Below, in pieces: positions 3,877 to 55,871 of a stretch of 64,000 nucleotides of DNA (the first letter of the stretch is position 1; the number at the start of each line of letters is the position of its first letter). Location: NCBI RefSeq assembly GCF_011947225.1, contig NZ_JAATVW010000005.1:186001-250000 (forward strand), read 5' to 3'. This stretch comes from Planosporangium flavigriseum (GTDB lineage: Bacteria > Actinomycetota > Actinomycetes > Mycobacteriales > Micromonosporaceae). A model generated the notes under the pieces. The model was not told the origin of the DNA. It worked only from the letters and a program-made list of their open reading frames with translations, and searched no databases. A program made the translations under genes and the position numbers.

Positions 3877-3935
3877 CGCGCTATGACGTGTGACGATCGG
3901 TAGGCCCTACCAAGCGTTTTGTGAGGATGTCGCCG

Positions 3936-5180
3936 ATGACCGCGCCCACCCCGGCCCGCCGCCTGTACCGGGTGACCGACGCGCGGGTCGTGGGCGGGGT
4001 CGCCGCCGGCATCGCCGCCCACCTCAACGCGTCCGTCACGTTGGTGCGCATCGTGTTCGTCGTCCTCGCCAGCTTCAGCGGCCTCGGCGCGCTGCTGTAC
4101 GCGGCGTTCTGGGCGGTACTGCCGCTCGCGCCCGGTCAACGCAGCACCCGCCGCGACCGCCGCCAACTGGTGCCGTTCCTCGCGCTCGGGGTCGGCATTC
4201 TGCTCGTACAGGTGCTGTCCGGCATGGGCGGCGTGAAGTCGGTGATCGGCTGGCTCGTCGCGATCGTGGCGGTCGGCGTGGGCATGATCTGGCAGCAGGC
4301 CGATCCGAAGCGGCGGGACCGCTGGACGGCCGCCGTCCCGCAGGCCCCGTGGCTCGGGGTCGTCCTCGAAGGTGACCGGCGCGGGCTCATGCTGCGGCTC
4401 ATCGGCGGCGGTGCGCTGGTGGCCGCCGGCATCATCGGTACCGTCGCCGTGGTCTCCGGCGCGGACCTGTCGGCGCTGATCAACGGGCTGCTGTTCGGCG
4501 GCCTCGCGCTCGCCGGCGCCGGTCTGGCGCTGGCACCCATGCTGTGGCGGGTCTTCGGCCAGCTGCGCACGGAGCGGGAGGCCCGCATTCGCGAGCAGGA
4601 GCGCGCCGAGGTCGCCGCGATGATCCACGACCAGGTGCTGCACACGCTCGCCCTGATCCAGCGCAGCGCCGGAGACTCCAAGAGCGTGCTGCGGCTGGCC
4701 CGGGCGCAGGAGCGCACGCTGCGCGGCTGGCTGTACAAGTCGACCGCCTCGCCGACCGAGCGGCTGCGCGCCGCGCTGGAAGAGGCCGCCGCCGAGGTCG
4801 AGGACACGTACGCGGTCGCGGTCGAGGTGGTCGTTGTCGGCGATCGAGACGTCGACGACCGGGTACGCGCTCTGGTGGCTGCCGCCCGCGAGGCGCTCGT
4901 CAACGCCGGCAAGCACGCGGGGGTGTCCTCGGTGTCGCTGTACGCCGAGGTGGAGCCCGAGCAGGCCAGTGTGTTCGTCCGCGACCGCGGGGTCGGCTTC
5001 GACCCGGAGGCGGTCGACGACGACCGGCACGGCGTACGCGGCTCGATCCTCGGGCGGATGCAGCGCCACGGCGGCCGGGCCGAGATCCGCAGCGAGCCGG
5101 GGAGCGGCACCGAGGTACGTCTGTTCATGCCGACTCCTGGGTGGAGCCCGGCCGAGGAGAAGGAAAACGTCAGTGAGTGA
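3936..5180 (+). CDS. PspC-domain sensor histidine kinase (NarL-type partner)
   Basis: Membrane histidine kinase of 414 residues. It opens with a PspC domain (about 10-63, RLYRVTDARVVGGVAAG), followed by several membrane helices (80-120 and 150-205), a HisKA_3 dimerisation domain with phospho-acceptor His231 in MIHDQVLHTL, and a HATPase_c domain with N box EALVNAGKHA and G boxes DRGVGFDP and GSGTEV. The start chosen is ATG 3936, with GAGG 9 nt upstream; ATG 3927 is also possible. The stop overlaps the start of the response regulator gene, so the pair is one operon. It is divergent from another PspC protein gene, and probably responds to envelope stress. The signal is not known. Confidence 0.9.
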   Translation: MTAPTPARRLYRVTDARVVGGVAAGIAAHLNASVTLVRIVFVVLASFSGLGALLYAAFWAVLPLAPGQRSTRRDRRQLVPFLALGVGILLVQVLSGMGGVKSVIGWLVAIVAVGVGMIWQQADPKRRDRWTAAVPQAPWLGVVLEGDRRGLMLRLIGGGALVAAGIIGTVAVVSGADLSALINGLLFGGLALAGAGLALAPMLWRVFGQLRTEREARIREQERAEVAAMIHDQVLHTLALIQRSAGDSKSVLRLARAQERTLRGWLYKSTASPTERLRAALEEAAAEVEDTYAVAVEVVVVGDRDVDDRVRALVAAAREALVNAGKHAGVSSVSLYAEVEPEQASVFVRDRGVGFDPEAVDDDRHGVRGSILGRMQRHGGRAEIRSEPGSGTEVRLFMPTPGWSPAEEKENVSE

Positions 5181-5823
5181 ATCGGGTCGCCTGAAGGTCT
5201 TCCTGGTCGACGACCACGCGATGTTCCGGGCCGGGGTCCGGGCCGAGCTTGGCGTCCACGTCGACGTGGTGGGCGAGGCCGGCAGCGTGGCGGACGCCGT
5301 CAGCGGAATCAGCCGTACGCAGCCCGACGTGGTCCTGCTCGACGTGCACATGCCCGACGGCGGGGGCCGGGCCGTCCTCGAGGCGATGCGCCAGAGCCAC
5401 CCGCAGGTGCGGTTCCTCGCGCTGTCGGTCTCGGACGCCGCGGAGGACGTGATCGGCCTGATTCGGGCCGGCGCCCGCGGGTACGTGACCAAGACGATCG
5501 ACCCGGAGGAGCTGGCCGGGGCGGTGCGCCGGGTGGCCGACGGCGACGCCGTGTTCAGCCCGCGGCTGGCCGGGTTCGTCCTCGACGCGTTCGCCGCCCG
5601 ACCCGACGCGCAGCTCGTCGACCCCGAGCTGGATCAGCTGACCAACCGCGAGCGTGAGGTGCTGCGGCTGTTGGCGCGCGGGTACGCGTACAAGGAGATC
5701 GCCAAGGAGCTGTACATCTCGATCAAGACGGTCGAGACGCACGTGTCGAACGTGCTCCGCAAGCTCCAGATGTCCAACCGGTACGAGCTGTCGCGCTGGG
5801 CGGCCGACCGCCGCCTGGTCTAG
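5173..5823 (+). CDS. NarL/FixJ-family response regulator
   Basis: 216 residues from the GTG at 5173, which overlaps the kinase stop codon. The receiver domain has the acidic pair Asp13-Asp14, the phospho-acceptor Asp57 in DVVLLDVHMPD, and Lys at KTID. A LuxR-type helix-turn-helix occupies about residues 155-210 (LTNREREVLRLLARG, IKTVETHVSNVL). It is the cognate regulator of the PspC histidine kinase immediately upstream. The CCCTGA/TCAGGG boxes in the divergent promoter gap are the most likely binding sites in this window; this is inference from position and symmetry. Confidence 0.92.
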   Translation: MSESGRLKVFLVDDHAMFRAGVRAELGVHVDVVGEAGSVADAVSGISRTQPDVVLLDVHMPDGGGRAVLEAMRQSHPQVRFLALSVSDAAEDVIGLIRAGARGYVTKTIDPEELAGAVRRVADGDAVFSPRLAGFVLDAFAARPDAQLVDPELDQLTNREREVLRLLARGYAYKEIAKELYISIKTVETHVSNVLRKLQMSNRYELSRWAADRRLV

Positions 5824-5859: not shown

Positions 5860-6600
5860 CTATTCGGTGTGGATGATCGTGAACGCCTCGGCGAGGCGGC
5901 CCTCCGGGAGGCCGTGCGCCCGCGCCACGGTCGCGTGCCGCTCCCGCAGCATCTCCCCGAACCCGTCGAGATGGCTGACCTGCGAGGCGTGCGCCTGAAG
6001 CGCGGCCAGCTTGCGGTCGAACGTGTCGGTGATGTCGACGACGTGGTCCGGGTCGGGGCCGGCCGAGTACCAGACCTCGCGGACGGTCCAGGCCTGCAGA
6101 CCCTGGTCACGCAGCAGCTCCGGGAACGCGAACGGGTTGCGCGAGTCCGGGTAGACGGCGCACGTGGTCGCCTCGCCCACCGCGAGGTGGTCCGGGTGGC
6201 TCGGCCCGGCGATCCGCTCCCAGCGGCGCAGCGGCGAGTTCGTCAGGATCCGGTCGGGCCGGAACCGCCGGATCGCCGCCGTGATGTCCCGGCGAAGCTC
6301 CAGCGACGGGGTGAGCGTTCCGTCCGCGTACCCGTTGAGGAACTCCACCTGCTTGACCCCGATCGCGGCCGCGGCCGCGCGCTGCTCGGCCTCGCGGATG
6401 ATCGGCATCTGCTCGCGGGGTGTGTCGTCGAAGCCGCCCGCGTCGCCGCGGGTGACCAGCAGGTACGCGACCTCGAGGCCCTTTTCGACCCAGTGGGCGA
6501 TGGTGCCGGCGGAGCCGAAGTCGACGTCGTCGGGGTGGGCGAGAACGCACAGCACGCGCTGGACGTCGGGGAGCGGCTCGGCTGAGGGTGGGAAGGTCAC
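5860..6600 (-). CDS. PIG-L family deacetylase (Mca/BshB-like)
   Basis: A zinc-dependent N-acetylglucosaminyl deacetylase/amidase of 246 residues starting with GTG. The zinc motif AHPDDVDFG lies near residues 21-29 and the second metal/catalytic motif SHPDHLAVG near residue 133. In actinomycetes this superfamily includes MshB (mycothiol synthesis) and Mca (mycothiol S-conjugate amidase), as well as enzymes acting on sugars of natural products. The sequence is shorter than MshB/Mca (about 290-300 residues), so I call only the superfamily. The gene runs in the same direction as the chorismate mutase gene, 58 bp downstream of it; no functional link is evident. Confidence 0.85.
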   Translation of the reverse strand: MTFPPSAEPLPDVQRVLCVLAHPDDVDFGSAGTIAHWVEKGLEVAYLLVTRGDAGGFDDTPREQMPIIREAEQRAAAAAIGVKQVEFLNGYADGTLTPSLELRRDITAAIRRFRPDRILTNSPLRRWERIAGPSHPDHLAVGEATTCAVYPDSRNPFAFPELLRDQGLQAWTVREVWYSAGPDPDHVVDITDTFDRKLAALQAHASQVSHLDGFGEMLRERHATVARAHGLPEGRLAEAFTIIHTE

Positions 6601-6678: not shown

Positions 6679-6976
6679 CGCGGAGGATGAGCAGCGCGAG
6701 CTGGACGCCGTCCTCGCCGAGTTCCGCGCGGAAACGGTCCAGGATCTGGCGCTCCCGGGCGAGGACGAGGCGGGTGCCGCCGGAGGCGACCCGGGTCTTG
6801 CCGACCTCCTGGGACAGGGCGGCGCGCTCCTGCCACAAGCGGAGGATCGTCTCGTCGATCTCGTCGATGCGGGAGCGTAGCGAGGAAATGTGCGCCTCGG
6901 GAGTTTCGGTGTTGGATGCGTTCTCGTTCATGGTGTCCACGGTCATGGCGGTCATCTCTGTCGGTCCCATTCTCAC
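6659..6976 (-). CDS. Monofunctional chorismate mutase (AroQ type)
   Basis: Rearranges chorismate to prephenate, the first step specific to phenylalanine and tyrosine. The 105-residue protein has the short all-helical AroQ pattern: ISSLRSRIDEIDETILRLWQERAALSQEVGKTR, then RLVLARERQILDRF. The Arg, Lys and Glu positions of this helix pair match the active-site pattern of the family. The start is placed at GTG 6976, with GAGG 8 nt upstream; several in-frame ATGs follow, so the true N-terminus may be shorter. No other aromatic pathway gene is adjacent. The striking feature is upstream: a Tyr/Phe-rich leader ORF and an intrinsic terminator (7006-7122), implying control by charged tRNA-Phe/Tyr supply. 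Confidence 0.88.
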   Translation of the reverse strand: MRMGPTEMTAMTVDTMNENASNTETPEAHISSLRSRIDEIDETILRLWQERAALSQEVGKTRVASGGTRLVLARERQILDRFRAELGEDGVQLALLILRAGRGPL

Positions 6977-7005: not shown

Positions 7006-7039
7006 AAAAACGCCCCGGGGCTTTCGGGGCCCGGGGCGT
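7006..7039 (-). terminator. Leader terminator (attenuator) upstream of chorismate mutase
   Basis: On the minus strand, a GC-only 9-bp stem CGCCCCGGG / CCCGGGGCG (within 7011-7038) is followed directly by five U residues (A run at 7006-7010 on the plus strand). It lies 15 nt after the stop of the YYFFY leader ORF and about 30 nt before the chorismate mutase start. There is no other minus-strand gene it could terminate, so it fits a premature terminator. Confidence 0.85.
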
Positions 7040-7053
7040 CGTCAGGTCTTCGT

Positions 7054-7122
7054 TCAGGCGTGACCTACGGCTGCCGGACTCCCGGAGCCGTAAAAAAAGT
7101 AGTAGCGCACGTCTGAACTCAC
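7054..7122 (-). CDS. Tyr/Phe leader peptide of a chorismate mutase attenuator
   Basis: A 22-codon ORF starting with GTG at 7122, encoding VSSDVRYYFFYGSGSPAAVG then HA and stop. Codons 7-11 are Tyr-Tyr-Phe-Phe-Tyr, exactly the two products of the pathway whose branch enzyme lies downstream. A shorter start at GTG 7110 keeps the five codons. A CATACT -10-like hexamer lies 7 nt upstream of GTG 7122, consistent with leaderless translation. Segments of the ORF (AGGTC near its end, and a GGCTCCGG/CCGGCAGCC stem) can pair with one another or with sequence just before the terminator, giving the alternative folds an attenuator needs. Function is inferred from architecture, which matches pheA- and trp-type leaders. 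Confidence 0.8.
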   Translation of the reverse strand: MSSDVRYYFFYGSGSPAAVGHA

Positions 7123-7287
7123 GCTGCTGAGTATGCCACGCTCGGCGCCGCGCGTGGGAGCTAGTGACCAGTTAGTGAGAAGCAGTACCCAAATGGAGGG
7201 CACGGTCGCCCCTGCCACCCGACAAGATCCCCGCACGCGAGGGGGACCGGCGCGCCTGTCGGTTCCGGTTTCGTCGCACTGCCGGCA

Positions 7288-55787: not shown

Positions 55788-55871
55788 GCCCGGGTGGTGG
55801 AAAGGCAGACACGGCCGCCTTAAAAGCGGCTGCCGCGAGGCGTGCGGGTTCGACCCCCGCCCCGGGCACCA
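55788..55871 (+). tRNA. bldA: tRNA-Leu(UAA), bldA type
   Basis: Acceptor stem GCCCGGG (55788-55794) pairs with CCCGGGC (55861-55867), followed by discriminator A and an encoded CCA. The anticodon stem GCCGC/GCGGC encloses the loop CTTAAAA, giving anticodon UAA. A long variable arm (TGCCGCGAGGCG) identifies a class II leucine tRNA, and the T arm GCGGG-TTCGACC-CCCGC is regular. In high-GC actinomycetes this is the only tRNA reading UUA codons; in Streptomyces it is bldA and controls development and secondary metabolism through rare TTA codons. A T6 run (55885-55890) follows as a terminator. Confidence 0.93.

Follow-up and report, generated by a model that had tools for sequence, protein, structure and literature searches.

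A putative phenylalanine/tyrosine attenuator upstream of stand-alone chorismate mutase in Micromonosporaceae and other Actinomycetes

In the pheL/pheA and trp leaders of Escherichia coli, the gene for a pathway enzyme is preceded by a leader ORF that contains codons for the pathway's end product. (According to the available passages of PMC11802643, E. coli pheA encodes chorismate mutase-prephenate dehydratase.) Among the actinobacteria, the accessible portions of two papers describe AroR of Corynebacterium glutamicum, a leader with a Phe-Tyr-Phe run (PMC11802643, PMC4046766). Short leaderless peptides with regulatory codons, several with terminators, are described for ilvB, leuA, leuS, and trpE of Streptomyces lividans and corynebacteria in excerpts from PMC8079986 and PMC5784534. 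In Mycobacterium tuberculosis, a uORF attenuator controls ilvB1 and senses branched-chain amino acids; the passages of PMC13236596 available to us report ribosome footprints and a codon-swap test. Further predicted attenuators appear in Extended Data Fig 5 of that paper, with loci that its text passages do not name.

The leader that we describe here resembles all of these. As in E. coli, a leader ORF with end-product codons precedes the gene for a pathway enzyme, but here transcription is predicted to begin at the start codon itself, the run mixes Tyr and Phe codons, chorismate mutase is encoded as a stand-alone enzyme, and none of the Rfam leader models matches. Like AroR, it is an actinobacterial leader before an aromatic-pathway gene, but AroR precedes aroF (DAHP synthase) and this leader precedes chorismate mutase. 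It shares the short, probably leaderless peptide and regulatory codons of the S. lividans and corynebacterial leaders, and the uORF/antiterminator/terminator logic of ilvB1.

This kind of attenuator is already known, but our search of open-access papers turned up no account of an actinobacterial member that controls chorismate mutase. A 2005 comparative survey, in the sections available, reported no conserved RNA structures upstream of actinobacterial phenylalanine/tyrosine operons (PMC1262725). The leader-peptide table of S. lividans has eight entries (two Leu, two Trp, and one each for Ala, Ilv, Met, and Thr), and in the available part of this 2021 reannotation, Table 4 has no Phe/Tyr or chorismate mutase leader (PMC8079986). 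The word chorismate is absent from the main text, as available, of PMC4046766, PMC5784534, PMC11133741, PMC4633059, PMC9094748, PMC10937400, and PMC13236596. (In the last of these, the term pheL, where it occurs in the available text, seems to stem from the surname of an author, Phelan.)

We analyzed a 64-kb stretch of DNA ("the window") from contig C45 of a 5.72 Mb genome. In a second genome of this genus (L002), every one of 275 25-mers tested from the leader region is also present in Planosporangium thailandense (L144), which puts the organism in that species' genus (Micromonosporaceae); L003, from another member of the genus, matches a MAG titled Dactylosporangium sp. (L115). An initial annotation had described a 22-codon ORF with a GTG start and five consecutive Tyr-Tyr-Phe-Phe-Tyr codons, followed by a hairpin, five U residues, and the start of chorismate mutase. 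When we re-read the sequence, we found each of these features (Table 1). The terminator stem (7038-7011) consists of G and C only and begins 15 nt past the stop codon of the leader. It had also been proposed that the terminator could serve no other gene, and we saw none: the gene upstream, for a PcrA/UvrD helicase, is divergent (7303 onward, plus strand). Two features were absent from that annotation, namely the -10-like element CATACT and the lack of a Shine-Dalgarno sequence before the leader's GTG. Because of that lack and the spacing from the -10-like element, the leader message is probably leaderless, with a predicted transcription start at or beside the GTG. A run of five consecutive TWY codons occurs once in the window, considering both strands and all frames, and was absent from all of 30 first-order Markov shuffles.

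Table 1. Features of the leader region and the downstream gene, in window coordinates.
Feature	Coordinates	Strand	Comment
-10-like promoter element CATACT	7130..7135	-	7 nt upstream of the leader GTG; read from the sequence
Leader-peptide ORF VSSDVRYYFFYGSGSPAAVGHA (then stop), 22 codons	7054..7122	-	GTG 7122-7120, stop TGA 7056-7054
Regulatory codon run Tyr-Tyr-Phe-Phe-Tyr, TAC TAC TTT TTT TAC	7090..7104	-	
P1 hairpin, UACGGCUCCGG / CCGGCAGCCGUA	7066..7092	-	Predicted to sequester the antiterminator strand if there is no ribosome
B', antiterminator strand GGGAGUCCGG	7074..7083	-	Within the leader ORF
C, GUAGGUC	7062..7068	-	5' strand of the inner antiterminator helix
D, GACCUGAC	7041..7048	-	3' strand of the inner antiterminator helix
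E, 5' arm of the terminator	7028..7038	-	Alternative partner is B'
F, 3' arm of the intrinsic terminator	7011..7021	-	
U5 tract of the terminator	7006..7010	-	
Chorismate mutase, 98 aa, PF01817	6659..6955	-	Probable ATG at 6955; presumed regulated gene

We think it very likely that this region is a ribosome-mediated transcription attenuator, of the trp/phe type, that controls the stand-alone chorismate mutase. The initial annotation had read it in the same way, and that reading is supported by conservation, by covariation, and, in silico, by folding that depends on the modeled state of the ribosome. We propose that RNA polymerase would start at or beside the GTG and that a ribosome would load on the leaderless message. 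With Phe-tRNA (and perhaps Tyr-tRNA) in the charged state, the ribosome would reach the stop codon and cover B' and C, which are in the 3' half of the ORF; the terminator (E:F) would then form and transcription would stop near 7006. If charging is low, the ribosome would stall within YYFFY and B' and C would stay free. B' could then pair with E, and C with D, before F exists, so that the polymerase would continue into chorismate mutase. In an untranslated leader, P1 would lock B' and termination would follow. The leader would thus probably shut chorismate mutase off when Phe and Tyr are plentiful. For this attenuator, we infer the start site, the translation of the leader, the response to amino acids, and the kinetics from sequence.

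We then examined the downstream gene. The protein matches the chorismate mutase family PF01817 (E = 3.3e-11), and a search of the source genome up to E = 1 gave a single match to it. The profile for the mutase family matches PDB entries 2qbv, 2vkl, 2w19, 2w1a, and 5ckx at E = 1.8e-24, so its nearest relatives of known structure, by profile, are intracellular mutases such as 2qbv. Some of these five entries are presumably complexes with DAHP synthase. Enzymes of this subfamily of chorismate mutases are known to bind and modulate DAHP synthase. In the order, 244 of 248 genomes gave a mutase of this type, and in the class, 90 of 295.

The association of the RNA with this gene can be seen without reference to gene context. 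From the Streptomyces-type and Micromonosporaceae leaders we made a pattern of the RNA core and scanned it over named genomes, which gave at least 119 matching stretches in the collection. The 80 matches listed are all from Streptomyces (one is titled [Kitasatospora]) or from Micromonosporaceae, judging by their titles, although the restriction to those two groups is partly by design. Chorismate mutase follows every one of the 72 listed matches that have 450 nt or more of DNA downstream; of the eight with less, four reach it and four end too early. An in-frame leader and a -10 box are present in 78 of the 80 listed, and the other two end with the stored DNA.

The leader is strongly conserved in the Micromonosporaceae. 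Twenty leaders, the window's among them, went into a covariance model (R1). At E ≤ 0.001, R1 has a match in 352 of the family's 354 genomes, among them every one of the 335 with a completeness of 90% or more; the two without a match are 69% and 77% complete. (These counts are of leader matches, irrespective of gene context.) The leader model thus bears out the conservation that an attenuator would call for in both the codon run and the terminator. The window's own genome has a single full-length match, besides a shadow on the reverse strand and short partial matches.

The details of the leader are conserved as well. In a sample of 150 genomes of the family, the 30 best loci, the window's included, all have CATA[CG]T 6-7 nt before a leader that starts with GTG or ATG, and 29 of these 30 fit a stricter rule (three or five aromatic residues in the run). 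Another 40 loci from the family were compared with our first regular expression: 25 fit, and the 15 that failed have mostly altered leaders, by eye. These first expressions were too strict and missed leaders with a shifted frame or an unusual -10 element. We gave 86 loci from the family to R1 and used 77 leaders. (L065 had no match to R1, and eight near duplicates were left out by hand: L012, L016, L018, L022, L118, L121, L128, and L156.) Both Tyr and Phe codons are present in 76 of these 77 leaders, the aromatic run is three or longer in 65, and a CATACT-like element lies 6-7 nt before the start in 74. A feature that counts against an attenuator is that the U tracts are short in many relatives.

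Phe codons in the family's leaders are mostly TTT (114/152). In four genes of the window, all 44 Phe codons are TTC and none are TTT. The rare TTT may sharpen sensing or may keep the run unpaired.

A few loci depart from this picture. Genome G030 has two copies of chorismate mutase (L053 and L054) with degraded leaders, either F-only or with scattered F and Y; a terminator-like hairpin is still visible by eye. In four genomes, no such leader was seen before a second copy of chorismate mutase (L065, L307, L308, and L309), and these second copies may serve other pathways. In L057 (88-199), the frame ends early after the aromatic run (FYFTASEVRQP, then stop), which is either a sequence error or a decaying leader.

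To look for covariation, we used 59 of the 63 non-redundant leaders among the 77 (alignment A4). The four left out are L028, L049, L053, and L054; a caveat is that dropping the degraded L053 and L054 favors the attenuator reading. Another alignment (A3), with palindromic matches from the reverse strand, was set aside. Across the 59 leaders, three structures are well paired. P1, in which UACGGCUCCGG pairs with CCGGCAGCCGUA, has 91.9% of cells paired. The antiterminator, in which GGGAGUCCGG (B') pairs with E around the nested helix GUAGGUC:GACCU.. (C:D), has 92.9% of cells paired, and the terminator E:F has 95.3%. If the partners are slid, at most 61% of cells are paired. As these structures share columns, they are mutually exclusive. 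The outer stem around the aromatic run is weak (76% paired).

The antiterminator has 22 cells in which both bases change, versus 5.2 in shuffles, and none of 500 shuffles reach 22. (The shuffles ignore relatedness, so these shuffle counts are not probabilities.) Four of the antiterminator's pairs show a double change, which is not exceptional, as 122 of 500 shuffles reach that number. Similarly, the terminator has nine double-change cells in its real register and 12 when slid by -1. Examples of compensation can be read directly: most leaders have GGAG:CUCC, but L070 has AUCG:CGAU, L034 and L067 have UUG:CAA, L004 has GGAA:UUCC, and L038 has GGGAG:CUCCC. Also, a leader's own B':E duplex has a mean energy of -17.4 kcal/mol, versus -15.9 with swapped partners (0/2000 shuffles). 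There are exceptions: in L036, L048, L052, and L066, B' pairs more strongly with most other E arms than with its own.

The initial annotation had suggested that AGGTC and GACCT, just upstream of the terminator, might be the competing pairing. This pairing does exist, as C:D, but it is merely the inner part of the antiterminator; what competes with the terminator is the pairing of B' with the terminator's 5' arm. We rejected C:D (AGGUC:GACCU) as the sole antiterminator: it folds beside the terminator and leaves it undisturbed.

We then asked whether the position of a ribosome would determine which structure forms. We folded transcripts that end before F and masked 12 nt from the A-site codon, which is an assumption. 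With a ribosome on the middle aromatic codon, the probability of E:B' pairing exceeds 0.5 in all 59 leaders; at the first aromatic codon this holds for 54 of 59, at the last for 56 of 59, and with no ribosome for just 8 of 59. With the ribosome at the stop codon it holds for none, but this is by construction, as B' is masked there. The mutually exclusive structures that had been looked for are present in the alignment, where the antiterminator and the terminator covary, and in this model the folding before F is made depends on the position of the ribosome.

An automatic definition of the arms gave similar results in three groups. In the Micromonosporaceae, E is paired in 59 of 63 leaders with a ribosome in mid-run and in 4 of 63 without a ribosome (shuffled spacers, 90/315). 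For the Streptomyces-type leaders the corresponding numbers are 66/70 and 22/70 (shuffled spacers, 133/350), and for the Mycobacterium-type leaders they are 5/5 and 0/5 (12/25). Because shuffled spacers pair with E too, GC content accounts for part of this pairing. At full-length equilibrium, the terminator is dominant in every state of the ribosome (0.90-0.91), so the switch would have to be kinetic. Classical attenuators depend on kinetic control.

How widespread is this leader? The initial annotation had called the arrangement unusual. Within the Actinomycetes it is not: we found leaders, diverged, in 15 of the 17 families examined that have this mutase (f1, f2, f4, f67-f77, and f99), with f85 negative and f89 doubtful, and with mostly 1-4 hand-chosen loci per family. 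R1 itself matches all 17 Streptomyces-type loci (E of 1.3e-6 or better). It also matches all five Mycobacterium-type loci, but weakly, with E from 1.6e-5 to 0.008 where chance or reverse-strand matches begin at about 0.0016.

For the other families we used one rule: a short ORF, upstream of the mutase, with an aromatic run whose last residues are YG and with a -10-like hexamer 4-9 nt ahead of the ORF. As controls, the rule matched none of 12 f2 loci from other genera, none of 34 opposite strands, and 1 of 254 tiles of 500 nt from the window, where one tile holds the leader itself. All loci follow the rule in f76 (16/16), f77 (4/4), f75 (3/3), f70 (2/2), and in f69, f99, f71, and f74 (1/1 each). 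Some loci do so in f67 (2/4), f68 (2/4), f72 (1/2), and f73 (1/3). Of the seven misses in these last four families, L311, L316, L317, and L319 show an F[FL]YG leader by eye and lack the required -10 element. By the same rule, f85 has a leader at 0 of 1 loci, and in f89 the rule matches 3 of 7 loci, in doubtful forms.

Within f2, genus g45, which we take to be Mycobacterium-like, has the leader in 18 of 20 loci, and the members of six other f2 genera have it in 0 of 12. No leader was seen before chorismate mutase at L294, from a seventh f2 genus. In f4, genus g50 has the leader in 14 of 15 loci by regular expression, and the fifteenth, L094, has MQNAQWFSYG.. by eye. (We take g50 to be Streptomyces because its leader is common to named Streptomyces loci; f76 seems to be Pseudonocardiaceae-like.)

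Two families have leaders of other shapes. At L312, L313, L315, and L318 (f68), the aromatic codons are spread over a longer stretch (..TRLFTGFFYGTPATAP.EEV or FFYR..). At L295-L301 (f89), the upstream region is a variant with the motifs HFYQG or FYGG..RSPL, several with GCATGCT replacing CATACT; this is possibly a diverged leader.

Which amino acid would the leader sense? It is plausible, from the codons in the run, that Tyr and Phe are sensed jointly in the window's lineage. The best alternative is that the same attenuator senses Phe alone: the Tyr codon beside Gly would owe its conservation to the base of P1, which TAY-GGC forms, and the extra Tyr codons in the Micromonosporaceae would be neutral or minor. 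We consider this a strong contender, if a little short of an even chance. All of the leaders have Phe codons in the run, except for degraded or doubtful ones. Conservation of Tyr next to Gly need not mean that Tyr is sensed, as the codon sits in P1 and its third base covaries (the column pair 36:58 is CG in 47 leaders, UG in six, and UA in five). Most of the listed leaders from f76, f75, f70, f69, f71, f74, f99, and g45 have FFYG, with a single Tyr, beside Gly, and the Streptomyces-type leaders have F-x-F-T-Y-G. Furthermore, C. glutamicum AroR is reported, in the available part of PMC11802643, to respond to Phe and not to Tyr. But 69 of the 77 Micromonosporaceae leaders also have a Tyr earlier in the run, and the window's leader has two such codons. 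These additional Tyr codons are less common outside the Micromonosporaceae.

Another alternative is that the terminator is a plain intrinsic one, accompanied by a small peptide or RNA that is non-regulatory or acts in trans. It leaves several things unexplained: the aromatic codons before a gene of the aromatic pathway in many families, the covarying antiterminator, and the chorismate mutase context. We think it very improbable.

The peptide itself might instead matter. Within families its C-terminal half (GSGSPAAVGRA, or in Streptomyces RPAGCHGRAA) shows striking conservation, and this conserved end could stall the ribosome when a ligand is present. The reading frames argue against such nascent-peptide arrest. 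Among the 59 leaders, the nucleotides after the run (..GCCGTAGGTCGC..) fall in frame 0 in 50, in frame 1 in eight, and in frame 2 in one; the eight frame-1 leaders read the same nucleotides differently while the aromatic run stays in frame. Most leaders end in PAAVGRA-stop or the like, but endings among those eight include RPSRRSSR-stop and CPGRRSR-stop. In addition, third positions hardly vary in 10 distinct, closely related Streptomyces-type sequences. The alternative frames and the near-invariant third positions suggest that the 3' part of the leader is constrained as RNA and not as peptide. Given the frames, we disfavor nascent-peptide arrest and regard it as extremely improbable. (L034, L040, L042, and L066-L070 are the leaders with shifted frames, a natural frameshift that separates the constraint on RNA from that on peptide.)

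Finally, the position and the terminator would suit any transcriptional cis-regulator, but a T-box or metabolite riboswitch before chorismate mutase is the most improbable account that we considered, as it would leave the aromatic run unexplained and no Rfam family matches the leader at the gathering score. (The only match in the window at the gathering score was a tRNA at 55788, and permissive settings gave only two matches, with E of about 10.)

Turning back to the attenuator, we can ask how old it might be. Perhaps it dates back to an early ancestor of those Actinomycetes families in which this mutase occurs, and already read the charging of Phe and Tyr jointly through one mixed, leaderless run. 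We offer this tentatively, with clearly less than even confidence. If it were true, the leader would set the flux of the whole aromatic pathway, as this subfamily of mutases is known to modulate DAHP synthase. If the attenuator is confirmed, it would fill a gap with one leader common to Micromonosporaceae, Streptomyces, and many other families, antibiotic producers included. The natural series of runs (YYFFY, FYFY, FFYY, FFY, and FxFTY) would be a way to ask which aromatic tRNA is sensed, and the leader would offer a compact leaderless system for studies of coupled transcription and translation in high-GC bacteria.

Two other features of the neighborhood are worth recording. A gene of the PIG-L (GlcNAc-PI de-N-acetylase) family begins 58 nt past chorismate mutase (5860-6600, minus strand) and could be co-transcribed with it. 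Farther along, at 3921-5823 on the plus strand, a histidine kinase with a PspC domain is followed by an ORF that, by eye, resembles a response regulator.
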